The position numbers and the translations under genes are program-made. The notes under the pieces were generated by a model. That model was not told the DNA's origin, did no database searches, and worked only from the letters and a program-made list of their open reading frames with translations. Shown one piece after another: positions 16,539 through 41,886 of a stretch of DNA of 64,000 nucleotides; the first letter of the stretch is position 1, and every line of letters starts with the position of its first letter. Origin of the DNA: Deroplatys truncata (Eukaryota; Arthropoda; Insecta; Mantodea; Mantidae); contig CM060984.1 in assembly GCA_030765065.1 (NCBI GenBank), positions 101,165,488 through 101,229,487 on the forward strand, in the 5' to 3' direction.

Positions 16539-16701
16539 ATGCAGTGGCTGTGGTTTGCTGTGACAGCGCTGGCATTGTTGCAGTACTGCAGCAGTGAAAG
16601 TGTTCCTGCACGCATCTGCGACTGGAGCGAACTCAGGCACCTCATCTACCGAGCATGTGGCACCATACACCAAGAAGAGGATCTCAGCCACGACGAGATA
16701 G
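16539..16701 (+). CDS. Insulin/relaxin-family peptide, exon 1 (signal peptide and B chain)
   Basis: The exon starts at an ATG in a good insect context (A at -3). The first ~19 residues, MQWLWFAVTALALLQYCSS, form a classic secretory signal peptide. The B chain follows, with its two cysteines in CDWSELRHLIYRAC (residues 27 and 40), then a Gly and the start of the C peptide. The frame ends in phase 1 at ATAG|GTATGG, a good 5' splice site. A phase-1 intron in the C peptide is the conserved intron of insulin superfamily genes, and exon 2 at 41744 is phase-compatible (G|AA gives Glu). The product would be a secreted hormone acting on an insulin-type receptor or a relaxin-type GPCR. Odd points: 12 residues between the B-chain cysteines instead of the usual 11, and a transposon starting within about 45 bp of the donor site. 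The subgroup (relaxin-like, IGF-like or gonadulin/Dilp8-like) is unresolved. Confidence 0.85.
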
Positions 16702-16730
16702 GTATGGGCATCATAAGACTAGGCTCAGAA

Positions 16731-17516
16731 TGGGAGTGTTTAGAATTTGACTGATTAAATTTAAGGGGTTGTAAGGAGTGTTGGGGGAGCAATTGGAGAT
16801 AGACACTTATGGTTCCACAGCGCAGGATTTTTTGCAATAAGCCAAAATAAATTTGAATCAGTACGCCACTGATACCACCTCAATGGTATATGCAAGCATT
16901 TGCTGTACTCCGCAGAAGTGTACAACTGTGGCTCAGTGGTAAAGTGGGCGGTTCTCAAGCCAGTGACACCAGAGTCCAAGTTCAAGCCGTGACGAGTGTT
17001 TTCTCTCTCTCCTATTTTCTTTTCTTTTCTTTCTTCAAACTGTTGATTGTGAAGGATATGGAGTACTTACTGTACTGTTCCATTTGTTGTTACCGCTGCT
17101 GTTAAATGTAATCAAGCAAATCAAACGAATGAATTTTGAACAGGAATGTACAACATAAGATACTGTAATGTTCTAAACATATACATGATATGTAATCAGA
17201 ATCCTTTATGGAGGTGACTTATAAAATGGCATTACCATGACCTGGGACTAATACACTATTGTGCTTTCAAATTGAAAGAATGCGCTGTTAACTCTGGATA
17301 AGAAATATCTAGTGCATAAGACAAATCACAGTCACATTACTGCTTAAGCTTTATTTATTCACTTCCAGGAACTGTAGAAAAGCTTATTTCTTCTTCAGAT
17401 ATACGGAAACAGCTAACAGTGAGCATTTCCATTTGTGAGCTCTGATTTTGTGAAATAGTTTCGTTTTGGGAAGCGCCAGCGAATCACGAGACAGCACTGC
17501 TATACATTTGCAGAAA
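16731..17516 (+). repeat. Left TIR, outer part
   Basis: Matches the reverse complement of 27046-28085 with roughly 80% identity by eye. Shared landmarks include aattggagata, gtacgccactgataccacct, atgcaagcattt, tggctcagtggtaaagt, gaaggatatggagtact and gtgagctctgattttgtgaa. It contains a tRNA-like pair of boxes at 16921-16990 (tggctcagtggtaaag and ccaagttcaagcc). Confidence 0.8.
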
Positions 17517-18368
17517 AAAAATTTTAAAAAAATCTGCATAGCTAACAGCCAGCTTCTAGATTCTATACCTGGCCTTATTATGCATACTTTATTTTTCCAC
17601 TTTATTTAAATCTTTCAATACATCTTTTACCTTTTGCAGAAATTATTACAACTAAACTACAACTCTACTTCTATCTATCAAACTACTGGTTACTGGATTC
17701 CAGTAACCTTACAATCTACTTCTATTCTAATTCCTAAAACGGTCTTTTTACTACTTCTACAATTTTTAATTCAACAAAATTCTACTATTACTACAAAAAT
17801 TCTAAATTACAAGATCAATTTATTACTTTATCATTCTAACTACTTTGCAAACTCTACAATGTTACTTCAAAACTACTAAATTCACTAAAGACTGTTTCCT
17901 AACCTGTCTCAAATGTGGTTTATTGGCAACTGGTATCCAGGTTGATCCTCTATCTGGAATCCATGTCCTCTCGGAATGGCATCAGCAGAGGAAACCGGAA
18001 CATCAGCTCCTGTTGTCATTGGTTCCTCTTCTATGTCATCTCCCTTGCTGCTCTTACCCTTTCCATATATTCTTGGGAGGTTTCATTGGAATCTCTTCTT
18101 GGTTTTATCCTCCTCCTCTCAGCGGCTTCCTGTCTACCTGTAGTCGTTCAATATAATCTTCTTCTGTTATAATTTGGATCTTCTGCATCTTGCAGTATAA
18201 GTCGCTTCCCATGTTCTTCTTGGATGTCATTTATTGTATTACTTCGTGTTATTAATTCTCATGGACATACTTGCTGTTGCATATTATTTCTTCTCCTCAC
18301 GGTTCCCTTCTTCCATTGCTTTAAATATTCCTCAGCTGCTCGCTTTGATGCTTTTTGTGTCATTTCCT
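17517..18368 (-). other. 3' untranslated region of the R1-type LINE
   Basis: T-rich on the plus strand with no conserved protein motif. It lies between the stop after the cysteine/histidine tail and the left target duplication. Confidence 0.5.
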
Positions 18369-19044
18369 CTAATTTGTATATGTTTGTTGATTTCTTATAA
18401 TATCCCATATATTTAAACCTTGCAGTTGATATCGATGTTCTTCTAAATCTTCAATGTAACTTGAGCATTCAAAAATCACGTGCTCTGGTGTATCCTGTGT
18501 TCCACATTTTTTACAAATAGCATTATCGATACTATTTATTCTTTTTAAATAACTTTTGTACGGTCCATGTCCGGTTATATAATTAATAAACCTTGTCTTG
18601 GTTTCACATGCCGTAATTTTAACCTCTCTTATATCTGGACTAATAGGTTCTCCTCGCCACATCTAATTCATTCCATTCTTGTAGAAAAAAATTAATAATG
18701 TCGCGTTTTGTTTTACAATTACTTCCTATAATTTCTTCTATTTTATCTAATTTACCTTTCTTCAACCAGTAGGTGGCTCCTCTTAAATGTATCAACAAAT
18801 CTATTGGCCATATCCCAACAGCTACTAATAATGCCATTGTAGATGTTCCAAACACCCCACAGCTCCTTAACAAAATCCGTCGTTGGGTTCCTCTCATTAG
18901 TTTTATGTTGCGTTTCAGAGTTAGTCTATGTGCCCATATGCTTGCTCCATATCCTGTTATTCCTATAACGAAGGTCATATGATATATTATTGTTGCCTCT
19001 AAAAGTATACGGTAACTCTTCTGTATTATGTTTGCTAATTTCAT
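18369..19044 (-). pseudogene. R1-type LINE ORF2, C-terminal part
   Basis: Two overlapping frames (18640-19044 and 18369-18662) continue the pol protein after the reverse transcriptase. They hold the thumb region (YGASIWAHRLTLKRN) and then the R1-clade tail with HGPYKSYLKRI followed by the C-x2-C-x8-H-x4-C finger (CKKCGTQDTPEHVIFEC). A one-base shift separates the two frames. In intact R1 elements this finger helps bind the RNA/DNA target; here it is only a landmark of clade membership. Confidence 0.8.
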
Positions 19045-19066
19045 GACAACTTATCAACTTTCTCTC

Positions 19067-19905
19067 TTATATTCTTAATATGCGTATCATAATTGGCTTT
19101 TTCATCCAATTCAATTCCAAGATATTTAAATGTCTTTGCTCTTCTAATATTCCTATTTCGAATTTAATAATGGGATCCCGTTTCATTTGTCCCTTTAGCA
19201 TCATATATGCTGACTTATTTGAGGCTAAGTTTAACTTATATCTCAGGCACCAGTTTTCCAGGACGTTAACTATTCTATGTGCTTTCGCTTCTAGTTGTAT
19301 TCTACTATTGGCTTCTAACATTATCATAATGTCATCGGCATATGCTATGACATCAAAAACATCCTCCATTGCATCAAGTTCTTCCAATATTGGTTCAGTC
19401 ATTATATCCCAAAATAGGGGTCCTAATATGGATCCTTGCGGACAGCCTTTTGTTATTTCTTTCACCATACTTATATGGTCGTTGTATGTATTTTCACACG
19501 TCGATCTCTACAATAATCCTTTAGGCTATTATATATACACCTCGAATAGTCCTTGGTTCTCATTATTCGAAAAAGCTCTGGCCACCATAAATTATCAAAT
19601 GCTCCTTCAATGTCAAAGAATATAGCTATTGTATATTTACTCCCACATTCATTTACTCTTCTAACGGCGCGATTAATGGCATCTTCTGTTGATTTATTAC
19701 TGCGAAGTCCATATTGCTTATCACACATCCCGATCATTTGTCTAAATTTATTGATCCTTTTGTATAGTAATTTTTCTTGAACTTTGCCCAAGGTATTTAA
19801 AAGACAAATCGGTCTATATGATTTCACCTTTGATGCATCTTTATCCTTCCCTTTCTTTAAAATTACTATATTGGCTTCCTTCCAGCAAAAGGGAATTCTA
19901 CCCAA
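19067..19905 (-). pseudogene. R1-type LINE reverse transcriptase
   Basis: Two frames cover the catalytic domain. The first (19471-19905) has FCWKEANIVILKKGKD, the SYRPICLLNTLGKVQEKLLY block and the FFDIEGAFDNLWW block with the first catalytic Asp. The second (19067-19468) has GCPQGSILGPLFWDIM and the active site IAYADDIMIML with both Asp residues intact. One frameshift separates them. All catalytic residues are still present, so decay is by frame breaks rather than by loss of the active site. Confidence 0.9.
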
Positions 19906-20709
19906 ATATAAGCATTCGTTGTATAGTTAGCATAGCTCTTGTGCGATTTTATCTTCTATGCATTTCACAACTTCAAAGCTTATACCATCTGGTCCCGTTG
20001 CTTTTTTATCTTTTCCTTCTCTAATTGCTACTCTTACCTCATTGATGTCGAATGGATAAACTAATCGATTTTCGATATATATTCTTCCTTAAACAGAGAT
20101 CTTTTTATTTCATGTTCCTCATTATCATGGATCATATTATCTTGCGGTAATAAGTTGCCCAGCAAGCAATTAATTGATTCCTTTCAGGTCTTTGTTTTAC
20201 ACCATCTTCTTTTTCCACGGTCGAAATATATTCTGGGGCATTTATCTTTTCCATAGTTATCTTATATGGCATTCCCCATACATCATCTGTCAATTTTTCA
20301 TCTACAAATCTATCCCACGATTTTTTTCTAAATTCTTCAAGTTCGAGTTTATATTTTTGCTTTATCTAAATATATCCTCAAATTCCTTTCTCTTTCCATA
20401 GCAGTTACTGACCGTTGATATATTCTTCTGACCTTCCTCATTTTTCTTCTTAGCTTATCATTTCATAGGCCATTTATCCTATTACTTTTAGTTTTAATCG
20501 GTATACTTTTCTTCGTGGCCTCTTGTATTCTCTCTGTTAATCTTTTTGCTTTATAGTCCACTGTCTACATTCCATAATCATTTATTGGTTCAAAATTTCC
20601 TATTACACCATCCCAGTTCGCTTTTTTGTAATTATAAATATTTCTCTTTTCAATTCTTGTAAAATATTCTTCAAATGTCATATCATATTCAAAGAGTATT
20701 ACATTATGG
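19906..20709 (-). pseudogene. LINE ORF2 linker between endonuclease and RT, many breaks
   Basis: Minus-strand sequence between the endonuclease and RT frames. No frame stays open for more than a few dozen codons, but composition and position match the ORF2 linker. No foreign insertion is evident. Confidence 0.5.
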
Positions 20710-21376
20710 TCACTTGTAGTTTGATTTTCCGTGACTCTCCATTTGCTTAAGTTTTTTTATTATATGTCCCTTTGATAATGTAATATCTATATTCTCTTCC
20801 GCACCTGCACGGTTACTAAAAGTATACGGATTGTTAGGTTTATTTAAGATAAATAGATTGTGAGTATGCATAAGTTCTCCTAATTGATCTCCTTTTATGT
20901 CGGGATTTTTGCTCCAGCAGAGTGCCGATTTAGCTTTGTCATCCATGGTAAATATTATTGAACTATTGGGGTAGTTTCTTATTACCTTCCTCGTTTTCCC
21001 CAAATGTATCTCTATTTCATCCTTAAATTGGTAATACTGATTGCAAATAATATTACTATTGCCTCTATACGTCTCAACTCAATATACATCATGTGTTCAT
21101 CACAAAGTTGTGAAATTTTTAAAATTTGCATTTATTATTTATTATTATTGCAGCTTTAGGATTATCGCCTTCCGATACGATCCTTATATTGGCTGGCATG
21201 TATGACACTTTTCCCTTATAGGTATATGGTTCTTGTATACAAATTATATCAATTTTCATTTCTTCTATTATTTTTCTCAATTCCATTATTACCATTTTAC
21301 TATTCTGTGCATTAATTTGTCCAAATCTAAGGTAATTTACATCAGCCATCTCGCAATGTATCATTAACCAAATCAT
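20710..21376 (-). pseudogene. R1-type LINE AP-like endonuclease
   Basis: The upstream frame (21119-21376) has LRFGQINAQNSKMVIMELRK and then IDIICIQEPYT, the Asn and Glu motifs that open an AP endonuclease domain. The downstream frame (20710-21003) has the SALCWS region and the HNLFILNKPNNPYTFSN end with the final ENIDIT block. This domain nicks the target DNA in target-primed reverse transcription. A frame break lies between 21003 and 21119. Confidence 0.8.
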
Positions 21377-21480
21377 CCATTCCTTCCTGAGTTGGATTCC
21401 TCCGTGAATTATAAAATCCCCTAATTTTTTCTATTGTTTTCTTTTGGTTTTCCTTCTGCTTTCCTGTTATTTCAACCTTT

Positions 21481-22089
21481 TTAATTTTCTCCCCACACAC
21501 CTTTCCTTTTTTTACAATCGGTATTAGTTTGAATCCTTATTACTCTTGGGGATCGTGGTATTGAGGTGTATTTGGGTGACAAAGATGAATATTTAGATTT
21601 ATTATCATCTCTTCTACAAAAACTCTCATTTGTGGTTTTTGTTATAATTATTGGTGCTTTTGCTTTAGGACATACATGTTTATTTCCTCCTCCTTGTTTA
21701 GCTTGCCTAATATGAACATAACAATTAGGCCAGCTCTGTTGGAAATCAAACACTACTCTTCCGTAGCACTTTACAGAATCATGTATTTCATCCATATCAA
21801 AAACCTCATTTCCTCTGGCAAACGTTTGAGCTAGTAGATTCAATAATTCTTCTTGTTCACTTGGTAAATTCACCACTCGCAGTTCCATTCTATCCAGTGC
21901 ATCTAGAACAGGAAAGGTTATCGTTTTTCCTTGTGGGTGTGCTATTCTTACTACATGTCTCAAGGGTGCCAAGAGTATATTCTTCTCTTCAAATCTGCTC
22001 ATTTTTAATTTTGTTTCAAAATCTTCATAAATACTATATGGATAAATTGCATTACTTTTACTTTGTTCTTCATATTCTATCTCTTCCAT
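21481..22089 (-). CDS. 202-codon intact frame between zinc knuckles and endonuclease
   Basis: This is the longest uninterrupted frame in the window and it has no stop in 202 codons. It starts MEEIEYEEQSKSNAIYPYS, has a central block with PVLDALDRMELRVVNLPSEQ and FDMDEIHDSVKCYGRVVFDF, and a basic, serine-rich C terminus. I recognise no domain. Typical R1-type LINEs have two frames, so this may be the C-terminal part of ORF1 cut off by a frameshift, or a separate middle frame. It lies about 100 bp before the endonuclease frame. Confidence 0.55.
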   Translation of the reverse strand: MEEIEYEEQSKSNAIYPYSIYEDFETKLKMSRFEEKNILLAPLRHVVRIAHPQGKTITFPVLDALDRMELRVVNLPSEQEELLNLLAQTFARGNEVFDMDEIHDSVKCYGRVVFDFQQSWPNCYVHIRQAKQGGGNKHVCPKAKAPIIITKTTNESFCRRDDNKSKYSSLSPKYTSIPRSPRVIRIQTNTDCKKRKGVWGEN

Positions 22090-22167
22090 TGATTCTCCAC
22101 CATATTTAGTATTTCCTTCCTGTACTTCTATTTTCCGTAGTAGGAAATCTATAAATCCTTCAACTAT

Positions 22168-22724
22168 CTATTTCTCTTCTGTTATTTCTTCTTCCGACGA
22201 TGTATCGTCTCGTATAATCTCATAAAAATTAACCGTTATCTTCTTTTTAGATTCTACCTTTATATTTCTGTTTAAGATATCAGATTCTCTCAAATTATTT
22301 ATTAGAGATTTATTTTCGGTGTAGACTTCTGCGGTTGTAATTATTTTCTCTCCCATATAAACTTCTTGCGTTTGTATTCCTATGTTCATTTTGTTTTTTA
22401 TTTTTATTTTGCACATATTTCTGGGCTCTCATCATATTTCTTCTAATTCTACTTGGATTCTTCTTTTTTGTCTTATTAATAAATAACTTAATAAGTGGCT
22501 TCTCCATAATCCGTTCTATGAATCAATCTTTCCCAGAAAATTTTATACATGCTACAATTCTTCCCTCCATCACATTTCTTCTTATTATTCATACATGGAA
22601 CACAGACTCGTGGTTGTTCTGCCTTTTTACAATCTTTCTTACTATGTCCTTCTTCACCGCAGTGAGAACAAATGCCTATCTTACTTTTATAATATTTTAC
22701 ATGTCCTAGTTCTTGACATTTCAT
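22168..22724 (-). pseudogene. LINE ORF1, zinc-knuckle region and basic tail
   Basis: The frame 22488-22724 has CSHCGEEGHSKKDC, a CCHC zinc knuckle, then CVPCMNNKKKC, as in the Gag-like ORF1 of R1-type LINEs that binds element RNA. The next frames (22310-22507 and 22168-22416) are Lys/Arg/Asn-rich, then acidic (SSEEEITEEK). Frames overlap with shifts, so ORF1 is broken. Confidence 0.75.
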
Positions 22725-22790
22725 GCACCGTGCGACTATAGTCCTTTGTGATCACAGATTGAAATCCTAGATACATTCTTCCTCTTCTTA

Positions 22791-23773
22791 TCATTGTGAC
22801 TCTAATTTGTGGATGAACCTCCAATACATGATGCACAACTGGGTTGTTCCTCGGTCCAGTCTTGAACCTAAACTGAACTTTTTTTTATCGAATTTCTCCC
22901 AATCCATCTCTTCAAAATTTTGATGGTAAAGCATCCTCTTCAATTCCTCTTCTTTTTCTTCCACAAATATGTCATACAGGATGACTAAGGGGTTCCTCTT
23001 TTTTGGGTTTTTCAATTTTCAGATCCTTCTCTTTTAGGTCTTTGCTATTCAAGATCTTTTCAATATCCTCTTCTGTTTCGGTTTCTATTACCACGTTACT
23101 TTTATTTGCTTTGATTCTATTTATTTTATTTTTTTCTTTTATTGGTTGTAGGTTCCTTGTTACTATTTCTTGTACCTCTTCTGGCTGTTTTCCTTTTTCG
23201 GACGTTATCAATACTATATGTTTTTTCTTTGTAGCGTATTCTCAACTTTAACTATGCTTTGCGGTAGTTTTGGCTTTTGTACTGCTTGAGCATAACTCAT
23301 TGGTGCTTGCATTTTTATCTCTTTCATTATTCTGTTTTCAGTTGTAAGTTTTACATTTTCTACTTTCATTGTTTCCATTTGCTCAGTAGTTTAGCTAGAG
23401 CGGTTAATGCTTTCTGATTGTTACCAGTTAACGTTTTACTATCCCTTCCAATAATGGTTTGTAGTACACTGATAGTACCTACAATATCCAAATACTTCTG
23501 ATCTGCCATCTCTGTACTATTTGTGGCTATATCCTCTTTTACGCATTCTTCCTTATCCATTTCTTTATCCTTTCTTTCTGGTGAGCGCACTAGGGATCTC
23601 CTAGGCGTAAAAATATTGCTCTCCTCCACCTCCACTCTCTGAAGTTTCCCTCTATCCTTTTCCGTCATTTTTAGCTCCTCTCCGCCAAAAGCAAGTAAAC
23701 CACTTACTTTTGCCCAGGGTCGGGGGACGAGGACCCGGGAGCAGCCTGGCTTAATTTCTACGGCCGTGTACAC
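22791..23773 (-). pseudogene. LINE ORF1, N-terminal part
   Basis: Frames at 23366-23773, 22972-23211 and 22791-23015 are Lys/Glu-rich and charged, in line with the low-complexity N-terminal half of a LINE ORF1. The EEDIEKILNSKDLKEKDLK segment may be part of a coiled or RRM-like region. 23774-23840 would be the 5' UTR, with a GGGGTCGGAGTCTGGCGG start. Confidence 0.6.
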
Positions 23774-23840
23774 ACAACTGACACCGTGAATTACTTTGTA
23801 ACCATTTTGGGCAGGGGGTTAACCGCCAGACTCCGACCCC

Positions 23841-24163
23841 ACATTTGCAGAAAGTCAAATATACATAATTATGAAAGCGCTTGTTACCACCTGCACGGGC
23901 AGCTCAGTTAGTAACATGGTTGACTATAAGGAAATAATGCTGTGTTCAATTCCCTCTGTAAAACAACTTTTGTTTTTCTTCATTTCTTCTTCTGTTTAAG
24001 ATGAGAGGCGCATGCATACGCGATAGCAATAGTAATTTTAATTTCTGAATAATCCAGAAGATAAAACATTTAGCTTTAGTGTAATAAAGTATTTCTAAAA
24101 AGGGTTTATTATATTGTTTAAATCTATTGCGTAGGAACACCTGCAATATTCCTGTTCGCACAG
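23841..24163 (+). repeat. Left TIR, inner part
   Basis: Pairs with the reverse complement of 26505-27058, for instance at agtcaaa, gttgactata, attccctctgtaaaa, atgagaggygcat, taattttaattt, gtttaaatctattgcgtagg and cacctgcaa. It holds a second tRNA-like pair of boxes at about 23895-23960 (GCAGCTCAGTTAGTAAC and TGTTCAATTCCC). Confidence 0.8.
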
Positions 24164-24263
24164 TACAGCTGCGATACCTAAGCGCATGCGCGACTCTGAA
24201 GATCACTGCGGCTGACAGTCTTGCTGTGTCATTTGAGTCACGTTGATCGTATTCAGTGGAATA

Positions 24264-25361
24264 ATGGCTAACAATTACAGTTTTGAGGAGGTAGCAGACA
24301 TGCATTTTGTTTACCGGGAAGCTAAAGCTATTCGACTTTACAGAGGAAGATAACATCAGACGTCACCCACATCCCTCGCTTTTCAGTCTGTTCACCAGCG
24401 TCTAAGGGAAACTCCCTGGAGGTGCAACGCCAAACGCCGGTACAAGACGAACACGTTACACTCCGGTATTTGAGGAAGACGTCCTCAAAAGATTTCAGGA
24501 GACCCCTTCAGCTAGTACCCATGCTATTGTACGTACAATGGGCACACATCATTCGAGTATATGGCGGGTGGTGCAGGAAGCTCGATCCATCTTTTAAAGT
24601 GCAATCCTTGACACCAACAGACGGTCGACGAATGCAGTTCTGTAACTGGGTCTCTGAACAGCACGTCGAACAGCCTGATTTCTTTTTCCGAGTGCTCTTC
24701 ACTGACGAGTGTTGTTTTACAAGGGATGGAATGACAACTCAACCAGAGAAATAGCATGTGTGGAGTCACGATAATCCACGCACCACTGTGCAGAGCAGCA
24801 GTCAGTACATGTTCGGCGTCAACATTTGGGCTGGCATAATTTCCAATTACCTTGTTGGTCCATATCTTCTTCCACCTCGACTAAATGGACATCTGTATCG
24901 CCAGGTCTTGATTAATGTTCTACCTGGCTTTCCGGAAGACGTTTCTCTTGTTCTCCATCATATGTGGTTCCATCATGATGGAGCTCCCGCCCGCTTTGAC
25001 AGGGGCGTTAGAAACATCTAAATAATGCATTCCCTGGACGATGGATTTGTCGCAGTGGTACTGTTTCTTGGCCACACGTTCTCCTGGCCTCACTCCTCCA
25101 GATTATTTCTTATGGGGTCACATTAGGAGCCTTGTATACGACAGCCCAATAAACTCGGAAGAAGTACTCCTCGCGAGAATAATGGCTGCCTGTGACGTAA
25201 TCCGCGACACTCCAGGCATCTTCGAGAGAGTACGAGATACATTTCTTCGTCGTTACAATCTATGCTTAGAAGTTGAAGGACGTCATTTTCAAGTTCCTTC
25301 GAACTGCTTTTTGCACGAAAGCGTGAATAACATGCTTAATCTCCTTTGCATTTTGTTATAA
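24264..25361 (+). pseudogene. Tc1/mariner-type transposase of the long-TIR element
   Basis: It begins MANNYSFEEVADMHFVYREA, close to the N terminus of the 10.8-kb transposase. Key blocks in order are RRMQFCNWVSEQHVEQPDFF, the first catalytic Asp in LFTDECCFTRDG, VWSHDNPRTTVQ, the second Asp in FHHDGAPA (Asp codon 24977) and the third in PPDYFLWGHI (Asp codon 25101). The end is VEGRHFQVPSN. The spacing of the last two Asp codons is 124 bases, or 41 codons plus a one-base shift, again suggesting a DD41D type. At least four frameshifts make it inactive. It starts about 100 bp inside the left TIR. Confidence 0.8.
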
Positions 25362-25374
25362 TTTTCAAGTTTCG

Positions 25375-25985
25375 TTTACTCCCAGGAGAAATAGGAGCAT
25401 TAATTTTCCTTGATCTTCCTTGTTTTTATAATTTTTTTCCACCCTGAGCATAAATAGCAGCTTTAATTTCCCTTTATCTTCCTTGGCTCTAGTCTAGGGA
25501 TAAATAAGAAGTTTAATTTTCCTTCATCTTTCCCAATTTCTGCAACTTTCTTCCGAACCGAGGTGTGAACAAATAGCTTTCCTCCTAGCTCTTCATCATT
25601 TTCCAGTTTCCTCCAATGCAAGAATAAAGAAGAGCTTTTATTTTCCTTTATCTTCCGTGATTTCTAAAATATTCCCCTACTACGAAATGTGAATAAACAG
25701 TTTTTCTCCCTAATTTGTCCTTAATGTTTTCCAGTTCCCTCCACTGTAAGGATAAATAAGAAGGTTAATTTTCCATGTCTTCGTGGATTTGTAATGTGCT
25801 TCCATTTCCTCCAGTCCAGGTTTGAATACACCCCCACCTCCTGTTTTCTTGTTATCACTTTCAAAAGGATAAACAATTTTAATTTTCCTGGTTCTTCGTT
25901 ATTATTTACACCTAATTTTCTCCAGCCTGAGGCTGGAATAGAAAGCTTATTTTCATAATTTCCTCCTGTCATTTTTTAATTTCGT
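25375..25985 (+). repeat. Degenerate ~75-bp tandem array inside the transposon
   Basis: Eight or so diverged units with the theme 'ggataaataagaag-tttaattttcctt-atcttcc-tttct-caa', e.g. near 25390, 25460, 25500, 25625, 25750 and 25870. It lies between the transposase stop and the right TIR. Such subterminal repeat arrays are known in some transposons. Confidence 0.5.
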
Positions 25986-26504
25986 CCACAGCTTCTCTAC
26001 GAAGTATGAGCATGTATGGTTTACATTGTTGTACATCTTTAACAGCTGCATTTCTCCATGGCTTACGTGGAATGGATAGAGTAATCAATTTTTGGGCATA
26101 TACAAGGCCACATACCAAATAACCAACACATTTTACCATTAACACCTATTCTTTTTATGATTACTGGCATCTACTTACATATGAAGCATGATTGCTGAAT
26201 TATCTTTGTGTGTTTCTTCCGGCCTACTGTGAAATTAAAATCCTACATTTCCTTCTTCATCCATTGTCGTTATAAATTTACACCACACCCGTATTAGACC
26301 ACATGTTATTTCCGTTGCTTTGTTTAAAACGCATGCGCTATATCATTCCTTGGTTATTTCTTATATCCACGTAACGGAATACTTAATGCCGCGTCTTTTG
26401 TACAACGTCTATATCATTAATTAATTTCTACATTTAACTAAATAGCACTAAATATCGCCATAGTGACCTGAGAAAGGAGCAGGCGTCTAAGCAGTGCAAC
26501 CCAC
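25986..26504. other. Transposon interior, nothing recognised
   Basis: AT-rich filler between the tandem array and the right TIR, with no coding signal. Confidence 0.4.
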
Positions 26505-26663
26505 TCTGCGAACAGGAATGTTGCAGGTGTTCCTACGCAATAGATTTAAACAGTATAATAAACACATTTAGAGATGACTTTGTTATACTATAGCTATTTT
26601 TTTTCTCTGGATAATTCAAAAATTAAAATTACCATTGCTGTTCGCAATGCACCTCTCATTTTA

Positions 26664-26887
26664 TAGCATGGCTCCTTTCGGAAGGGAACTAAAGCCGGTG
26701 GTTCGCTCCTTTGGAAGGGAACTAAAACCGGTGGTTCCGTGTAGTGGATTTACGGCACGTAAAAGAACCTCAAGCCTGATAAAGAGACCTCTGAGCAAAA
26801 TTACAGGTCTCTCACGGCCAGTATAGAATGAGACGCTAAGAACCACAGCACTTAAGGAGCGTACATAAATAAAAACTAAATTTTAAG
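26664..26887 (+). mobile_element. SINE (CATAAATAAA-tail family), 5'-truncated, copy 2
   Basis: Flanked by an 11-bp target duplication CTCTCATTTTA (26653-26663 and 26888-26898) inside the right TIR. It starts within the SINE body (tagcatggctccttt) and has the 'ttcggaagggaactaaa' block twice, a small internal duplication. It ends cataaataaaaact. Confidence 0.8.
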
Positions 26888-27477
26888 CTCTCATTTTAAA
26901 CACAAGCAGAAAAACAAGTTATTTTACAGAGGGAATCGAACACCGCACTATTTCACTATAGTCAACTATATTAGTGAATGAATTATCCGTCCGAGTTGCA
27001 ACAGTCGCTTCCATAGGTGTGTTTGACTTTCTGCAAATGTGCAATCCCATCTTGTGATTCACTGGAGCTTCCCTAAACGAAAATGTTTCACAAAATCAGA
27101 GCTCACAAATGGGAATGCTCACTGTTAGCTGTTTCCTTGTATTTGAAGAAGAAATAAGTTTTTCTACTGTTTCTGGAAGTGAATAAATGAAGCTTAAGCA
27201 GGAATTTATACTGTGATTTGCCTTGTACACTAGTTAATTCTTATCCAGAGCTAACAGCGCATTCTTTCAATTTGAAAGCACAATAGTGTATTAGTCCCAG
27301 GTCATGGTAATGCCATTTTAAAGTCACCTCCATAAAGAATTCTGATTACATACCATGCGTATGTTTAAAACATTACAGTATCTTATATTGTACATTCCGT
27401 TCAAAATTCATTCGTTTGATTTGCTTGATTACATTTAACAGCAGCGGTAACAACAAATGGAACAGTGCAGTGTTCCA

Positions 27478-30189: not shown

Positions 30190-30190
<1 letters not shown>

Positions 30191-30883: not shown

Positions 30884-30892
30884 CACCGTCCT

Positions 30893-32175: not shown

Positions 32176-32458
32176 CCAATGTTGAGATAGTACAGGTCTT
32201 ATGCCAACAGCGTTGTCACATGTCAAGAGATACGTTAATAACGTTCATCTGTTGTTCTATATGTGGGAGACAATTTTTTTCCAACACCAACCGATCAATG
32301 CTCCGCACTTTGCTACTCATTATTTACCCTGATTTCTTTTCTATTTTAATTTACTTCACTTTGCACTACATAACACGTGGGTAACTATAGCAAGCACCAC
32401 GGAGAGTCCTGCACAGTGCAGTGCGCGTTCGGCTTGGCAGGACTGAAATAGGGTTCTA
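32176..32458. other. No gene seen
   Basis: No recognised coding or repeat content. Confidence 0.4.
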
Positions 32459-32675
32459 CAGAGTGAGTCAAAAGACTCCGAACCGCCTGCGCGGTGTTTT
32501 TCCTGTCCGCGTCCTGGGCGCTCGTTGCCGTCTGCCGCTATCACAGAAAGGCGCGGATGAAACCATACAACATTTTTAAAACTACTTATAAAGGCTTTAC
32601 TTACCAATTTTATGAAAGGAAATGCTGAAACTGGCCACGTCGTTATCCATACATTTTTGGCACCTCTTTAGGAAA

Positions 32676-32957
32676 CTATCCATCATGGAATTTTTGGGGG
32701 GAATTTTCCAAGCGATGACCGATGTCGTCTAATGTTTCTTCGGTAAGAACCGAACGCCGTCTTTTAGATTTCTTAGCCTGAACACTTCCTGTGGCCTGAA
32801 ATTTACTGTAAAGTGCATGGATTGTTGTACGGCCTGGAACTTTTACACCTGAAAATCTTTCTGCAAATCGTACTTTCACTTGGCGAGCTGACCGAGTTAA
32901 CACATACGAATCATAAATAAATACACGCTGTGCAGTAGAAAACATATACTGAGCCAT
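32676..32957 (-). pseudogene. Tc1/mariner-type transposase, N-terminal domain
   Basis: MAQYMFSTAQRVFIYDSYVL begins a helix-turn-helix (DUF4817-like) domain, continuing with VKVRFAERFSGVKVPGRTTI and LTEETLDDIGHRLENSPQK. After residue ~90 the frame runs straight into the transposase C-terminal code (MDSFLKRCQK region, shifted), so the whole catalytic core is deleted. A related transposase is at 63398-64000. Confidence 0.8.
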
Positions 32958-33196
32958 AATATACTTTGTGACTAAGTACAGGACGAAATAATAAACAACT
33001 CGTAATAACTGAATCACATCACATCACTGTCAACTCAAAACTGCACTTCACACTGCATAGCAAAACCACAAAAGCGTGAGTTTGTTTATAGCAGCAGTGC
33101 GTTATCATGTTTTTATCATATTTCCACACGCCCAGTGGAAAAACACCGCACAGCCGGTAATATTGTTCATAAAATACCCCTCCGGGGTAACTTAAA

Positions 33197-33343
33197 ATGT
33201 ACAACACAAACCCATACACCCTGGAAGAATTAAAACAAAATATCCGCCAGGAACTTTCTCAGCGTGAACTACGGCGAGTGATGGATAGTTTCCTAAAGAG
33301 GTGCCAAAAATGTATGGACGACAGTAGCCAGTTTCAGCAAGCT
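33197..33343 (+). pseudogene. Tc1/mariner-type transposase, C-terminal fragment in opposite orientation
   Basis: The plus-strand frame gives NPYTLEELKQNIRQELSQRE followed by LRRVMDSFLKRCQKCMD, the normal C terminus of these transposases. It points away from the N-terminal fragment on the other strand, so they cannot be parts of one gene copy. Confidence 0.75.
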
Positions 33344-33601
33344 GGTAAAGTAAAGCCTTTAAAAGTAGTTTTAAAAATGGTTTATGGTTTCATCCGCGTC
33401 TTTCTATGATAGCGGCAGACGGCAACGAGCGCCGAAGACGCGGACAGGAAAAATACCGCGCAGGCGGTTCGGAGTCTTTTGGCTCACTCTGTATGTGCTG
33501 AGCACACTCCATTTCAAAAATAAAACCGTTATCGTAAGAACGAAGTATCAGTTGGTTCGAACCTTGCACAGCTCCCTTATTACCTATACGTATTAGTCAT
33601 T

Positions 33602-33720
33602 GTTTTATTTGATAGTCATTGACTATCAAATAAAACCCAAAATTTAATTCTAAGTTGTGTTTATCTATAGGTAATAAGGTCATTGACTATCAAATAAAAC
33701 CTAAAACTTAATTCTATGCT
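33602..33720 (+). repeat. 35-bp palindrome plus direct copy of one arm
   Basis: GTTTTATTTGATAGTCA is followed at once by TTGACTATCAAATAAAAC, an almost perfect palindrome (33602-33636). The right arm with ~20 further bases is repeated directly at about 33679-33712. Confidence 0.8.
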
Positions 33721-33860
33721 GTAAGCTAAGAGGTGTTTACAGCACATAGGCGCTGTACTATTTCCCAAACGTTAGTCACTGAGTAACAGTATGTGCAGGC
33801 ATTGCCTATTGGGGGTGTAGAGAGCCGCATGTCACATTCACGAGGGTGGGTCGTGGTGTG

Positions 33861-33897
33861 GTGACGTGACGTGACGTGACGTGACGTGACGTGACGT
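33861..33897 (+). repeat. (GTGAC)n pentanucleotide repeat
   Basis: Seven tandem GTGAC units followed by GTAAC; every junction reads TGACGTG, a bZIP-type (CRE/UPRE-like) half site. Confidence 0.85.
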
Positions 33898-34844
33898 AAC
33901 GTAGCTTTCCCTCAATCGGAGCAGTGGCGTAATGCTGATTCTTAGTTTTGAAGAGCTGGCAATGACTACTCATTACAATACAAGGTATGCATTAAATCGC
34001 CAAACAAAATCAAGTGCTTTATTCATTATCATTCATAAAAATAAAGGTTTGAAACTCGAAATATCTCGTACGTATCAAATTGAGGAAATAAAATATAACT
34101 AACTATAAACTTATAGGAAAAAGAACAAAACATTCAATACTTAAGAGCTTTTACAGGGAATAAATAACATCTTGCTTTAATTGACGATGGCTTACTAATT
34201 GGAGTCAGGGGTAATATCCCATGCTTTTTTGTATTATTTTGCAGAAAATATAAATTTAAAAATTCAGTTATTAAAGCAGTAGCCCTCAGTGTTATAAAAG
34301 GGTCACCAGATATATTGAAAGAGCATTTGTATGGTAAGCTAATTTATTCTTGCAAACAAATTTGGTTATTTTAGATAAGGGTCATTTCCATACATATTTG
34401 TAGATTTGTATTTTCAGGTAGTGTTTTATATAGTTGCAACTTTGTTAAGAATCAATCATATATTTATATGCTTTTGTTGTTTAGTATGCTTTGTTTATAG
34501 CAACTCTCAGTAATTGGGGAGGCTGAATTTGGTAATGAATTCTGTACACACACGCGCACGCACTCTATCACACTACATTGCAGCATCTTTGTGTGCTACA
34601 AAATATGAAACAGCTCATTCCTCCTTAAATGTCTTACCAACTCCTGTGGAATGCACCTTGTAAATTGCCTACAGCAGTGTTCCACCACAGGTTGGAAGAC
34701 TGCTTGTGTGTTGCAAACAACAAATGAGAAGGGAAGGAATGGAAGTCGTTTGACACGCGGGGTCAATGACTTCCATACCTAGCCTGCTGAGAACAAGTTA
34801 TCTACAAAAAAAATTACATAATACAGAGGCTTCATTTGGACGCA
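33898..34844. other. No gene; small hairpin
   Basis: AT-rich. A hairpin TGGAAGTCGTTTGAC / GTCAATGACTTCCA with a 7-base loop lies at 34740-34775. No coding segment is recognised. Confidence 0.4.
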
Positions 34845-34932
34845 TGGCCAACTTGAAGGGAATTTGCTTGGCACCGGGAAGCAAGCATTTTGCCGGTGGA
34901 GTCGGATATTTATAGTCCATTAAATTTAAGCG
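34845..34932 (+). repeat. Inverted repeat, partner at 37975-38065
   Basis: Shares GGGAATTTGCTTGGCACCG, gccggt, and ggatattyatagtccrttaa in the same order with the reverse complement of 37975-38065. The pair flanks the Mutator-like pseudogene. Confidence 0.6.
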
Positions 34933-34947
34933 TACATATTTCTCATT

Positions 34948-35145
34948 CGTACGCGATTTCTATTATGGGGGACCTTGAAAAATAAAGTGTATGGGTATAA
35001 CTCGCATACGTTGTAAAAACTGAAAGACAATATAAGAAGAGAAATTGCTGCAATTGCAGAAGAAGAATTACTGAGTGTTAATGCAGATTTTCTTAAAAGG
35101 TTTAGAGATGTGTGGCGGCACAAGGACATATTTCCAACATATACT
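34948..35145 (+). pseudogene. Tc1/mariner-type transposase C-terminal fragment
   Basis: With one frameshift and one stop the plus strand reads FYYGG-LKNKVYGYNSHTL, then KLKDNIRREIAAIAEEELLS and VNADFLKRFRDVW. This matches the C-terminal part of the same type of transposase as at 33197. No TIR is seen next to it. Confidence 0.65.
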
Positions 35146-35854
35146 ATGATGAAGGTACTTTCTCAATAACTATTTAACATAGTTAAATTAAACTTTGACC
35201 CCGAATACAGTAATGTTTTCCAAACATAATCCATGATAAATTACTCAAGTGTGTTAAAAGTTAATGTTACCCACATATAAATAATATAAAGAGTTTTAAA
35301 ATTATCACTAATAGGGGTATATTCAGGTGTCTTTTCTCTAAAACTATATATTATTTTTTGGTGAACTTTTGTATGTTTTAACAGATGCACTACTTGACAA
35401 TTTTCACCTAAATTTGTTACTTGAATATGAAGACAATCTCCACAAAAATTTTTATATGATGAACACAAAACTCATGCTGTTTACATACATGTATTTTTTT
35501 AATAAATTATGATTAGCAAACTGTTAAATAATTTTAGGTGCAATAGCTAACCCTTGAACTGAGAAAGAACCAGCAAAATTTTCATCTATGTAGCTTAATG
35601 GGTTGCTGAGAAAAGTCCACCTGAAATATGAAAAATATAAATTATGGTAATCTGCATTTAACGATAAATGTGGACCTAACAGCAGTAACTCACCAAGTTA
35701 GAACATCCCTGATCCACAATCCATATCCTTTGCCCTTTCCTCACTTTGTTTCCTGTTTTTCTCTTATCTCTTCATAACTCTGGCCTCTTTAGACATGCTT
35801 TGTATATATTTTAAGGCTTCGATGGCTCTTCTATCATCTATTCCTTTCAGTGTC
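35146..35854. other. No gene seen
   Basis: AT-rich. The first ~150 bp left of 35854 may still be 3' tail of the Mutator-like element. Confidence 0.4.
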
Positions 35855-37400
35855 ATTTTCATGTTTTCCCCACCGGTATCCCAAGTTGTTCATACACTTT
35901 AATTCTCCTGCTGCAGTCATCATTAAAGCATTCTACTGTATCCAAAACATCCAGTTTTAATGTACTGGCTCCAACATAAACAGTTTTAGGGATGCGCTCC
36001 CAAATTACATGGTGAAAACTTTCATTGGAATTTTGTGTGCGGCCATTAAACATTTTCCCAATAGTTTCTCCTTAGCAAGATCCCTGAAAACTTGTTCTGT
36101 TTCAAGCAGCATAGCTTCTGGCAGAGAATGCTTATGCTAATATGCTTCTACAGTATTTGGTACTTTTTGAAAACCATAACATGAATCTGGACCTTTGGGG
36201 CACAGGCCATGACTAGGAGACGCATCTGTAGACAATTTGTGGAAATAAATTGCCCATATAGCTTTCTTTATTTCCCTGACAGAAGTTCCAGCATTTCTCC
36301 TAATAGCTAAGCCACAATACCTTTGCAACAGTTCAATATCTGCATTTCATAAACGCCCTCTGCCAGATAAAAATTTCCCATCTGAAAGTAGTTTTCCTTT
36401 TAAGTCCTTCTTCAATTTTCTTAATTCAGATCCTATTCTCTTCTATTCATGCCCTATACATTCTAATTTTATAATCTGAATATCATTTCCATAAACTTGA
36501 AATGAATTGAAATACAGATGGCTCCTGAAATCTCTATCTCCTAGGTAATGGGTATAACTTACTTTACATGTGGATACAGAGCGACTGAAAATTTCCAATG
36601 CACCTGCTGCTTCCATTCCTCCATTGTATTCTTTGTAATTGATGCTGCAATAATTGTGTTCTAAGTTACTGTTTCCATGGCATAAAGAGCAATTTTTGGA
36701 CATGGGATGCACATCAACTACCTTTCCATTATCCAAGAATGTTGCTGTTACAACACAGTCGGAAGAATTATGGCCCCTTCTTTGCCAACTTCCATCCAAT
36801 GCTATAGCTATATTGTGTTGCTGTCATTTAGGCTTATGGCCTCTTGCACAGCACAGAGCCTGAATTTTCTGCAACTGTGTTTAGGGCACTTTTTATATAC
36901 GGCATAAGTTTTGTTTATGGAAGTGACAGGTCCATTACATCACAGAAAGTTTTTTGCAGAATTCTGACCTTTGCCAATGCATTTCATGCTACATACAAGT
37001 CTAATATTAATATCATAACAACCACTATGCTTCCTATACGTCATGCTGGACGTGACAGACCTACATTTATTGCACACAGTTTTTAATTTAGAAACTAGCC
37101 GGCCCCTTCTTCCTAGTTCGTCTTATGCAAATGTTAGGCTGCATTGTTCATTATAATATATACATTTGCAGGCTTTATTTAAGGAAGTGAGTAATTCCAA
37201 GTCCACTATAATATTTTTATTGTCTGTAATAATAAACTGGGGTTTGGATTGCAGTTATTGTAACTAACCTGAATTTTCTTTGAACTTGCACTGTGACCAG
37301 CTTGTAGGTTAAGATTACATTTTGTTTCATTTGATTTTAATGGCATTTACAAATGCTGATTATGGAATTTACTTTTCTCAAATTGCTTCACTCTTCCCAT
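35855..37400 (-). pseudogene. Mutator-like transposase, about 515 codons, broken
   Basis: Starts MGRVKQFEKSKFHNQHL at 37400. Landmarks in order are a cysteine-containing N-terminal part (NKACKCIYYNEQC), the 'GKGQNSAKNF-CDVMDL' block, the core LDGSWQRRGHNSSDCVVTAT with MSKNCSLCHG and NYKEYNGGMEAAGALEIFSR, then VSYTHYLGDRDFRS and KLECIGHE. After a stop come LLQRYCGLAIRRNAGTSVRE, then HGLCPKGPDSCYGFQ and NGRTQNSNESFHHVIWERIP. This order is typical of the Mutator-like transposase family widespread in arthropods (DGSWQKRGH, GDGDS, ECIGH, NxNESF). It is a single exon with six or so breaks, fairly young by the look of it. Confidence 0.85.
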
Positions 37401-37849
37401 TGTGTTTTGCAATGTTACTTTGTGTAAACACCCGAAAAACAACCTCAAACCACTGAAAATCAACAAAACACTTTACCGCCATACTTCTCACTATAAAATA
37501 ATAGAGGAAGGAAATAATGGCCTTCTGAAAACGTAAACAAATACATGCAACCTAAGGCCAGAGTTAAACTTAACAAAACAAAATTTACCATCTCATAACT
37601 TCAAGATTTAGAAAGGAGCAAATGCATGTAAATGGTAGGCTTGTAGGTTTGTTGTGAAGGGGCGTGGTCTATGCGCCGCCAAATTTAAATGTCCAAATTA
37701 AAGCCCCTTATGAATAGGAAGCTGCAGCATGACATATATATATATATATTTGAAAGCTGCGAGTTTCTAGTTTTTTAAGCTTTAAAACAAAAAAAAATCA
37801 TTTTTTTTTACCTAAACAACTACCCAGTGTACTTAATGCAGCCCGATTC
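37401..37849. other. Upstream flank of the Mutator-like pseudogene
   Basis: Presumably 5' part of the transposon; (TA)n run at 37736-37750. No coding segment. Confidence 0.4.
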
Positions 37850-38070
37850 GCCTTTTCAGGATAGGGAAAATAGTAGATAAATGTTACCCGAGTAACTCAC
37901 CCTAACCGAGATTCGAACAGAACCTCTTGACCACAGAGGCGGGCGGTATGTGGTTATTGTAGTCATAGTCGGCATGACGCTTGAATTTAACGGACTATGA
38001 ATATCCAACTTTGCCGGTAAATAGCGTGCTTGTCGGTGCCAAGCAAATTCCCACTTAGCAAATTCTGGTA
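37850..38070 (-). repeat. tRNA-like SINE or TIR-containing repeat
   Basis: The minus strand has TGTGGTCAAGAGGTTCTG and then GTTCGAATCTCGGTTAGGG (B-box-like). The right part (37975-38065) is the inverted partner of 34845-34932. Confidence 0.45.
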
Positions 38071-38365
38071 TTATCACCACGGATTCAGAAATAACTTGAA
38101 ATAAGTGTGAAGTTATTGCATCACACCTAGTGCACGTGTGCTTATTATCGTTTGGAACTCTGTGGCACGTAAAGTTGCATTGCATTGCATTGACTGTTAT
38201 TCAAGAGGCTTGAAAGTGTATGAGATTTTCATACATTGTGTGCAATTGTTGCATAATGACAGAATCTATGGTCTACATCAGAGCTCAACTGTTATAGTTT
38301 TGATATTGAATAAAAGTGTTACAAGAAACAAGAAACAAATCTATGTGTAGCATTCACCTAAATTT

Positions 38366-39180
38366 CACTACTCCCTATTCTGCAAACTATTCTTACAAAA
38401 TCTTATTTCTCTACCTGCTTCATGTTGAGATAAACATTTGCAGATATTATTACCCATTTTGTTGCAAGTAGAAGAGGAATACAGTAGGCTTAAGCAATAG
38501 TCAAATCTATTGCTACATTATGACTGAAATTTCATGCTCTTTACATGACCACGAGAAAAAAAGAACAGGGATTTTCACTTAAGAAAAGTACTTTCAAACT
38601 AATAACAAAGCTTATTTCAGAAATTGTTAACACTGCAACAAATTTCATTTGACATAAATTGCGTGCTTTAACAAGATTTTTTTTATTATTCGTTCATTTA
38701 TTTATTTATTTATTGTAGCAAGATTCTCTTATGGCTCATCAATTATACAAAAGTCATTCAGAATGAAAAGGTCTTCACAGGCTATTCTTAGAAAATCCAA
38801 TACATTTACATATACATTTGTCATGAAAATGTATTAAATGTATAGTACTTTAATCAAAATCATTAGAGCCATTTTTGAGAAAACAAATATAAGAAAAATG
38901 TTTCTTGACAAACTTTGTGTTGCATCTTTGGAAGATATTGAACTTAAATACCAAGTTTGCTATTTATCGCACCTTTTCTTTTTGAGTTATGCTGTTCTCG
39001 CACGCGGGCACCCACACCCACACACACGCACGCATACACACCTTTTTCCAAAAGTGCTTTTGGGGAGGGCAGTCTAGGGTGCCTCAAAACAAATATTTCT
39101 GCTGAAATCTTGATATCAAAATTTTTGGGTGGGATACAATACTCCCTCTATGTACTGTGTGTAGTTGAGAAAGTAAAAAG
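38366..39180 (+). mobile_element. M1 repeat, near full-length
   Basis: Follows the M1 order from 'ctattctgcaaactattcttac' to 'tactgtgtgtagttgagaaagt'. It has a CA/GC-rich patch at 39000-39040. The first ~20 bases of the 5' terminus are degenerate. Confidence 0.7.
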
Positions 39181-39934
39181 TACATGAGATTTCTTTTCTT
39201 TATTTCTTTTTTACCTGTTGTGTATATGCTTGTGCACAGGTGCTTCTTTAGAAATTAATTGCCGAGGATAAATTAGTTTTTATCAGTAGTGAATGATCTA
39301 GAATTTCAAACTTGCAGCAGATCTACTCTATACAGAGTGCTTTAGAAAACATGAAATTTCCAATATTTGAATTTGTAAAGCCTATGTAAAGTTGTGTGCT
39401 ACATAGTTTGCTAATACTCTGAATTTGTTGTCATGCCTTGTATTACAAAGGACCAGAAATGTATGACATACCAAAATTGGTGGCCCCGACATCACAGAAT
39501 CAGGCTCCGAGATGAAAGGAGATCTGCTATCAAACACTCCATTAGCTGTGAGCTTAATATTTTTTATTAATATTATATAATTGCACACTTCTGGCACTTT
39601 GTTTGCATGAATATAAAAGTTTGTTGCATTTCACTCCCAGCTATGTCATGTTGTCCATTTGTCCCATTTTCCATGCACTTTAGCAGTTGGAGAAGGCAAT
39701 GCAAAAATATACCTTGGTGTGTGTATAGTGAGAGCAGATTGAGAAGAAAGAGAATTTGGTGCAAATGTATTTAGCAATCATAATTCACTATTATAATCAA
39801 GGTATTAGCAGAGTGACAGAAACTTTCTTGTAATAGACAGCTTGTAGTGTGTTGCTGGTATAGGGATCCCATATTTCGAAATGAAAATGTGCGACATGTG
39901 CTCAAAAGGCAAATAATTAAAAAATGTTCTACTT
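39181..39934. other. No gene seen
   Basis: No recognised coding or repeat content. Confidence 0.4.
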
Positions 39935-40490
39935 TTTCTTCCTTTCATGGGTTAGGCCACGGTCTGCTCCAGTCCCAATTCCATCTTTACATAAGTCTTC
40001 CTATCCACCTTCTCTCTTTTGGTTTATAACCCAACATCTTTCTTGGTAGCTTGCTTGCATCTATTCTATTTATATGATATTTTCATTTTTGTTTATGTTG
40101 TTCTATAATTTCTAATATTGGACTAATCTCTAGATCTTCTCTTATTTCTTCCTTAGTGACTGTATCTCTTCTTGTTATTCCTTTGACAGATCTCAAAAAT
40201 CTCATTTCTACTACCTGGATATGACTATCTTCTGGGTTAAAACCCAACTTTCACTCCCATAAACTATACTGGTGCAGCCATGGTTTTATAGAATTTAAGC
40301 TGTGTTTCCTTTCTTGTGTTTTTTTAAATTTATTCTGTGTATATACTTATATTTTTAACTTACATCACAGCCAAGATAGTTACAATTTTGTACTTGATCA
40401 ATTATTTTATCTTGTATTACTATCACAGTCTGTTTTCCTATGAATGTCATTACTCTCATTTTATTTACTGACATTTTCATTCATACAGTA
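39935..40490 (-). pseudogene. Non-LTR retrotransposon RT C-terminal fragment
   Basis: Minus strand, with frame changes: MKMSVNKMRVMTFIGKQTV, IIDQVQNCNYLGCDVS, SIVYGSESWVLTQK, KEEIREDLEISP-like and KREKVDRKTYVKMELGLEQ. This is the usual order after the RT active site in LINEs of the endonuclease-RT type. It differs from the fragment at 28.1-29.9 kb. Confidence 0.65.
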
Positions 40491-41049
40491 TTTCAAAACG
40501 AGCAGCAGGGTGTTTAAATTACTAATACTCTCTAGCATATGCAACAGTGAATGAATCACCAGCATTACATATCTTGTAACAGCCCTTTTGTGTTTAAAAA
40601 GTTTAATATCTATAAAAATGAAACTATTTTCTCAAAAAGCGTAACAAAAATTGATCCACTAGGCATTTAGATAGGACATGGGACAAAGGATTTAATTTGG
40701 TGCTGTTTCACCATAATTGGAATGTTTGGGATCCCTATACTGGTAAAGGTTAACTAAAACTAACCCGGTCTTAAAGTTGTTCATACCATGCATAATCATA
40801 TTAATAATTACGTAACCATTAATACAGTGTAACTGTAAAAGTCTTAATAAGTAAAGCACTGCAATTGTTAATTATAACCATTGCACAAATATAACTGTTT
40901 TCTGTGCTCCCACTCTTTGTTAATTTTAGATCATAAGCAGTGTATGTGAACATGAACATATAAAAGACATTTATGCTAATATTTTGACAAATTCTATATT
41001 GTAGTGACACTGCAGTTTTTCCTGTTGTAAGCTTTTTATTCTTTTTGTT
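40491..41049. other. No gene seen
   Basis: AT-rich intron sequence. Confidence 0.4.
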
Positions 41050-41442
41050 TTTTCACATATGGAATATTCAGTGAAAATAAAGAGAACTTTACAACTATTT
41101 ACAGAAAATTAAAATCATACATTTCATTCTGCTACCTAAAAAATACATTTTAATCACAATCGTTACAGCCAGTTTTAGAAAATAAGTGACTTTTTTTTTC
41201 CGTGTAAAGGGTTAATCAGGGTGGGTGAAATTTCATGAAGATCTTCATTCCGCCTCCTTATAAAGTGCCTGAACTAGGATTAAATTTAGTATTTATCATA
41301 CATTGCTTTTTAAGTTATGATGTTTTCTTTTTCTCAGGTTCAGCTGACCCCCAAGTATATTTTGTTGAAATATCAACCCCAAATTTTTTAATGAAATACA
41401 TTATTTCCTCTACCTAACATAGTTAAGCAGCCGAGAAAGTAA
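41050..41442 (+). repeat. M1 repeat, 3' half
   Basis: From 'tacatttcattctgctac' through 'cgttacagccagttttagaa' to 'gccgagaaagtaaa'. It ends 300 bp before exon 2 of the insulin-like gene. Confidence 0.6.
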
Positions 41443-41743
41443 ATCTTGGTGTAACAAATACTTATTCATTTGACATTTTTTTAACACAATCATAGTTTGA
41501 ATTGTTGGTTTTGTGTCCCATTATTACCCTCTCTCTCCCTCTGTAATGTTTGGTTTCAGATAGGCTATTATGCACATTAACTTCAGTTACTTATCCAAAA
41601 TGAAAAGTGACCAGAAATTTTTTGTTCACCGTTTTATTATATGTACCTACAGAAATGTTCCATACACAGTACTGGTTTGTTAATAAAGTAAGCTGCAACT
41701 ACTGAATTGCTCCTTATCATATTATGTGTTTTGTTATTTTCAG

Positions 41744-41886
41744 AAAAATGGTTTCCAATTTGGCAGCCACTGAAGCCATTCCTAACACTTCCCCCTTACA
41801 ATGCAGATCTAAGGGAGCCCAGAACACTTCTCGAGAAGTGCTGTGCAGATGGTTGCACAGAGCATGACTTCAGTGGAATATGCTAA
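41744..41886 (+). CDS. Insulin/relaxin-family peptide, exon 2 (C peptide and A chain)
   Basis: The exon follows a pyrimidine-rich tract and TTATTTTCAG. Its first two bases (AA) complete the Glu codon begun by exon 1. It then encodes a C-peptide part rich in Pro and Leu, and the A chain CCADGCTEHDFSGIC, ending in TAA at once. The A chain fits the insulin family signature C-C-{P}-x2-C-[STDNEKPI]-x3-[LIVMFS]-x3-C exactly. With the B-chain cysteines this gives the six cysteines for the bonds B1-A2, B2-A4 and A1-A3. No dibasic (KR/RR) site lies between B and A chain in the two exons, so either the C peptide is retained, a monobasic Arg is used, or an unseen middle exon exists. No in-frame stop is present; the sequence looks under selection, unlike its surroundings. 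Confidence 0.87.

Follow-up and report, generated by a model that had tools for sequence, protein, structure and literature searches.

A probable gonadulin gene near dilp7 and aIGF in the mantis Deroplatys truncata

Insulin-like hormones of arthropods include the ancestral gene trio dilp7 - aIGF - gonadulin, and a candidate for its gonadulin (dilp8-type) member is described here from the mantis Deroplatys truncata. The candidate consists of two exons within a stretch of 64,000 bases (the window), which spans C10:101165488-101229487 on the plus strand, C10 being contig CM060984.1 of assembly GCA_030765065.1, a genome of 4.29 Gb in 818 contigs. The two exons very likely form a real hormone gene of the insulin family, and with a probability of about 0.7 they encode gonadulin. 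The strongest evidence for this is the position near dilp7 and aIGF, not similarity: the window gene stands beside aIGF, with dilp7 on the same scaffold and strand. Both dilp7 and aIGF were identified here, which leaves the third place of the trio to the window gene.

The gene and its insulin-like neighbours

When joined, the exons at 16539-16701 and 41744-41886 of the window give 306 nt in a single frame, that is 101 amino acids and a stop, with the join in phase 1. Exon 1 is translated as MQWLWFAVTALALLQYCSSESVPARICDWSELRHLIYRACGTIHQEEDLSHDEI. The predicted precursor starts with a signal peptide, whose hydrophobic 9-mer has a mean Kyte-Doolittle value of 2.57, followed by six mature cysteines; it stops immediately past the sixth cysteine and is devoid of dibasic sites. 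The hallmark of the superfamily was found downstream of the signal peptide, with two cysteines in the B part followed by CC-x3/4-C-x8-C in the A part, as was the phase-1 intron in the C domain, a superfamily feature which a passage of PMC8286064 states for ambulacrarian genes. The sequence-only reading from which the work started had proposed these exons, their splice sites and phases, and an A chain that fits the insulin family signature and stops after its last cysteine; all of this was recovered on the sequence as an open 306-nt join. Its placement of the gene in the insulin/relaxin family, with the phase-1 intron in the C domain, has independent support from dilp7 and aIGF, both found on the gene's own scaffold and strand in a span of about 0.58 Mb. 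That reading left the type within the family unnamed and did not mention the C-x12-C spacing of the B chain. The features of the gene, by window position, are as follows.

16539..16701, plus strand: coding exon 1, with signal peptide, B chain and start of the C domain; 54 codons and 1 base
16539..16598, plus strand: predicted signal peptide, about residues 1-20, its end set by eye
16617..16658, plus strand: B-chain C-x12-C, CDWSELRHLIYRAC
16702..41743, plus strand: predicted phase-1 intron, GT...AG, 25,042 bases
41744..41886, plus strand: coding exon 2, with the remaining C domain, the A chain and a stop right behind the last Cys
41812..41823, plus strand: REPR, a possible furin-type site ahead of the A chain, predicted from sequence
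41839..41883, plus strand: A-chain signature of the insulin family, CCADGCTEHDFSGIC
42149..42154, plus strand: first AATAAA past the stop, a possible poly-A signal, with three more up to 42448

Just 5' of the start codon, TACAG|CAG at 16520-16527 was noticed by eye as a possible acceptor of an intron in the 5' untranslated region.

The dilp7 orthologue was located at C10:100631005-100647448 on the plus strand, which is also the strand of the window gene, and the scaffold that both occupy is 263 Mb long. The query, a part of Drosophila ILP7, had five matches at E ≤ 10 among 11 candidates. The orthologue accounts for two of them (E 1.6e-12 and 6.0e-10), and the remaining three are weak (E 4.7-5.6). 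The exons of the orthologue join in phase 1 across an intron of 16,102 bases between the B and A parts. The product is 67-72% identical to dilp7 of four cockroaches and termites (Periplaneta 71%), which are 79-86% identical among themselves, and identity is 60 and 65% to two Timema, 57% to Anabrus, 53% to Nicrophorus and 48% to Gryllus; the Blattella record in this comparison is partial. Such values suit a branch lying just outside Blattodea, as Mantodea does.

Searching the genome with Pfam Insulin at E ≤ 10 gave seven places from 16 candidates, five of them above the cut-off; the window gene is not one of the seven. The place at C10:100998452 (plus strand) is the A-chain exon of aIGF, whose exons 2-4 occupy C10:100998483-101021691 on the plus strand. 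This exon reads NPRPPETS past the sixth cysteine and then meets a phase-2 donor; an Arg-rich CRC exon begins 0.8 kb further, and the last exon, carrying GTISPSYM, ends at C10:101021691. The product of the joined exons has 51% identity with the IGF of Periplaneta and 49% with that of Zootermopsis across 89% of its length; three IGFs from cockroaches or termites, when aligned with it, support the exon joins. The first coding exon did not turn up in the 11.5 kb read on the upstream side of the A-chain exon. The start of the window gene is 160,335 bases past the aIGF stop. In the 200 kb downstream of the window aIGF was sought and not found, as it lies upstream. The Arg-rich exon has two candidate donors, GGCAAG and GGAAAG, 78 bases apart, which would yield both published types of IGF isoform.

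The remaining six Pfam Insulin places lie at C10:203.91-204.14 Mb on the minus strand, 103 Mb from the window gene, and comprise four A-chain exons above the cut-off and two weak matches to B parts (E 2.9 and 7.2). One of these two is read as a B chain, and the whole is a cluster of sirp type; the spacing of cysteines 2 and 3 is three residues in two of its A chains and four in the other two. Passages of PMC7357564, PMC10148640 and PMC11874938 describe gonadulin, aIGF and dilp7 as adjoining in Tenodera, stick insects, cockroaches and termites, and an excerpt of PMC8286064 makes IGF the middle gene. For Tenodera sinensis, a section of PMC11874938 puts the trio on one part of a chromosome and a sirp cluster on another part of it. 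The order found here, with IGF central and the sirp cluster elsewhere on the same chromosome, agrees with this published state, and the layout shared with Tenodera likewise fits a mantis.

Other identities for the window gene were considered and rejected. The conserved dilp7 sequence (ECC..AGCTWEEYAEYCP) is absent from it, and dilp7 has its own orthologue at the place given above. The C-terminal extension of aIGF, encoded by two exons, is likewise absent, the reading frame stopping at the sixth cysteine, and aIGF too has its own gene. A sirp was rejected by its other place and other features.

Weighing the gonadulin assignment

Several results weigh against gonadulin. The 101 amino acids reached only E 0.049 with Pfam Insulin (PF00049), at 15 bits against a cut-off of 23; exon 2 alone gave E 0.016 and 16.6 bits against the same cut-off, a comparison that covered the window gene without any gonadulin as a control. 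Moreover, the window gene and aIGF are both on the plus strand. A part of PMC8220825 reports a tail-to-tail order of gonadulin with aIGF for stick insects, locusts, termites and cockroaches, and Tenodera is said in a passage of PMC11874938 to share the organisation of the German cockroach. Tail to tail is an observed arrangement, not a definition of gonadulin, and a scaffolding error or an inversion is a possible cause of the same-strand order. The B-chain spacing, C-x12-C, is one above the usual, against C-x11-C in dilp7 of this genome, the three aligned IGFs and one sirp of this genome, a comparison set to which gonadulins themselves do not belong. Furthermore, the 141 kb from aIGF to the window (C10:101024001-101165487) lie outside the stretches read, and immediate adjacency is unproven.

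The orientation and the B-chain spacing would suit another insulin-like gene, a fourth one specific to the lineage, next to the trio, with the true gonadulin in the unread gap, farther off, or lost; a weakly scoring gene in the gap would go undetected by the Pfam search, like the window gene. This explanation is unlikely, in that the stretches read (C10:100986952-101024000 and C10:101165488-101429487, with a poly-cysteine tract and a 28-codon frame set aside as not fitting the family) contain no other A-chain exon fitting the signature besides that of aIGF and no second candidate, and it is simpler to assume just one gene beside aIGF. It is proposed tentatively, at somewhat less than even odds, that either the dilp7-aIGF-gonadulin block was rearranged to one orientation or a fourth hormone with a C-x12-C B chain arose beside it.

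The nematode family Ins_beta (E 0.014, 15.9 bits against a cut-off of 21) and Insulin were the sole Pfam families at E ≤ 10 for the prediction, and its matches in PDB were two INSL5 A-chain entries (E 0.71 and 0.89) and a hemocyanin (E 6.8). A search with the 101-residue prediction, proposed with the sequence-only reading as a check against arthropod insulin-like peptides, returned no homologue at E ≤ 10 among 5.8 billion proteins (five candidates). From the same database, 111 of 128 candidates were recovered at E ≤ 10 with dilp7 as the query, and 11 of 83 at E ≤ 1 with aIGF. Because that database yields many relatives for both neighbours, the window protein would either evolve far faster than they do or have its relatives absent from the database. 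A part of PMC7357564 describes gonadulins as too variable in sequence to be readily found in a genome when no close relative is at hand, which fits the empty search, while dilp7 and aIGF find many relatives. Six peptide strings taken from the prediction or resembling it had no match in the text of papers, figures being outside that scope. Within the genome itself only the two exons match the 101-residue query at E ≤ 0.001 (nine candidates scored), and exon 2 alone finds only itself at E ≤ 10 (five candidates scored); the copy number of exon 1 was covered inside the 101-residue query only, at its E ≤ 0.001.

A real insulin-family gene might also have been given a wrong or incomplete exon model, with an extra exon inside the intron or with exons drawn from different genes. 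The intron of 25 kb is a prediction from the sequence, and introns between coding exons of gonadulin are mentioned in a passage of PMC8220825. Such an error is nevertheless improbable, for the phases match, the window offers a single A-chain signature and a single first exon that fits, and dilp7 of this genome has the same lone phase-1 intron between its B and A parts. The donor ranks within the best 2.3% of 3,418 GT sites by an approximate consensus matrix, and the acceptor is average, 16% of 1,664 YAG sites being equally pyrimidine-rich.

More improbable again is a gene whose inactivation is so recent that it has left no visible trace. Gonadulin is a pseudogene or lost in several termites according to an excerpt of PMC10148640, but the 101 codons of the joined frame contain no internal stop, frameshift or lost cysteine, and three relaxin-receptor-like loci, of unassigned type, remain in the genome.

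The insulin-family A-chain signature occurs once in the six frames of the window, and the looser pattern CC-3/4-C-8-C adds one match, in a 28-codon frame at 47003 on the minus strand. The signature was seen once in total across 60 order-3 Markov simulations of 64 kb, and in none of the 60 was it followed by a stop within five residues. The exon-1 pattern (C-x(9-13)-C between a hydrophobic start and a phase-1 donor) has a single instance upstream of exon 2, which is exon 1 itself. At a minimum donor score of 3 it arose in 5/60 simulations at loose hydrophobicity and in 3/60 at the stricter setting; at a minimum of 0 it arose in 24/60 and 19/60, respectively. Exon 1 alone is weak evidence, since so many simulations give one without the donor threshold of 3, and the A chain bears most of the weight against chance. 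The thresholds were chosen after the exon had been seen; these figures are therefore guides, not P-values. A chance match, for which the Pfam and PDB scores below significance, the lack of a database homologue and the frequency of fitting first exons might speak, is the least probable explanation of all, given the rarity of the A-chain signature in simulations and a location beside dilp7 and aIGF, in a genome of 4.29 Gb, that is independent of the signature.

Predicted maturation, receptors and the intron

If the window gene is gonadulin, a spliced transcript joining both exons would exist, and the precursor would be secreted by the constitutive route, perhaps being cut by furin after REPR. 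The presence of REPR ahead of the A chain without a dibasic site fits the constitutive route that is discussed for locusts in a section of PMC8220825. The product would act on the relaxin-type receptor LGR3, and the gonads may be one of its chief sources, as is reported for gonadulins in other insects. With a transmembrane part of human RXFP1 as the query, 14 matches were obtained at E ≤ 0.001 from 58 candidates, five in single places and nine in three multi-exon loci for relaxin-receptor-like G-protein-coupled receptors: C6:193112776-193124074 (three matches), C14:200947545-200962004 (four) and C11:113042306-113050506 (two). The C6 locus is nearest to human RXFP1, at 40-56%. LGR3, LGR4 and LGR5 are given for hemimetabolous insects in a passage of PMC7357564, and the count of three putative receptor loci agrees with these, without assignment of any locus to a type.

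The intron is overlapped by 68 open stretches of at least 75 codons. Seventeen were scanned with Pfam, and 6/17 match transposon-type domains, namely two reverse transcriptase pieces, an endonuclease, a Mutator-like transposase and, weakly, a zinc knuckle and DUF4817. The elements delimited are these.

19070..19926, minus strand: reverse transcriptase pieces of a broken element of the non-LTR (long terminal repeat) type; Pfam RVT_1, E 2.9e-15 and 4.4e-17
20713..21078, minus strand: endonuclease piece, probably of the same non-LTR element; Pfam Exo_endo_phos_2, E 2e-10
36446..36823, minus strand: piece of a Mutator-like transposase; Pfam Mutator, E 5.2e-23

Repeats shared within 264 kb account for 24.6% of the intron. 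Together with the transposon stretches they cover 13,023 of its 25,042 bases (about 52%), a total in which the limits of the transposon stretches were partly set by hand between domain matches and which includes 24326-25358, where three open stretches match no Pfam family. The earlier view that everything between the exons is mobile DNA thus went too far. The length of 25 kb is ordinary for such a genome, because the sister genes reach 16.1 kb (dilp7, at the same place) and 21.9 kb (one intron of aIGF), and means of 12.8-15.0 kb are given for introns of two mantises in a part of PMC10415354.

Elsewhere in the window, scans for Rfam families and tRNAs found nothing. A tRNA-like stretch with words resembling box A and box B was seen by eye at 16040-16101 on the minus strand, perhaps a short interspersed element, where ARAGORN calls no tRNA. 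Trinucleotide arrays of TAT, AAG and AGA, perfect or nearly so and of 28-34 copies, lie at 43254-43336, 46371-46453 and 59147-59247. Among viral contigs one stretch fits a pattern, and none was confirmed.

Comparison with known insulin-like peptides

A complete gonadulin candidate was thus found from raw sequence and backed by its gene neighbourhood, where sequence searches miss gonadulins. A mantis gonadulin gene has already been published, as a passage of PMC11874938 attests; the window gene adds to a known kind of hormone, and the picture of the hormone family would stay unchanged. If its orthology is confirmed, it would provide a gonadulin from a further dictyopteran with a large genome, as well as a test of how fixed the published tail-to-tail order with IGF is.

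The sirps, including atirpin, are like the window gene in their short precursors and in having few residues past the last cysteine; they differ in that their four A-chain exons in this genome score above the Pfam cut-off and carry RR or KR pairs, at a distance of 103 Mb and on the other strand. The aIGF of the same genome is a neighbour on the same strand and shares the CC-3-C A chain, whereas it has extra exons with the Arg-rich CRC and GTISPSYM, and the window gene ends at the sixth cysteine. With dilp7 of the same genome, the arthropod relaxin, the window gene shares the phase-1 intron between B and A parts and, by eye, a similar LRHL-YxAC in the B chain; dilp7 differs in being highly conserved, in its CC-4-C, in the tail past the last cysteine and in a gene 0.53 Mb upstream. 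From insect gonadulin, or Drosophila insulin-like peptide 8, the window gene differs by sharing the strand of aIGF and by its C-x12-C B chain, and it resembles this hormone in its place beside aIGF in the trio, its six-cysteine precursor, its fast change and its lack of dibasic sites.

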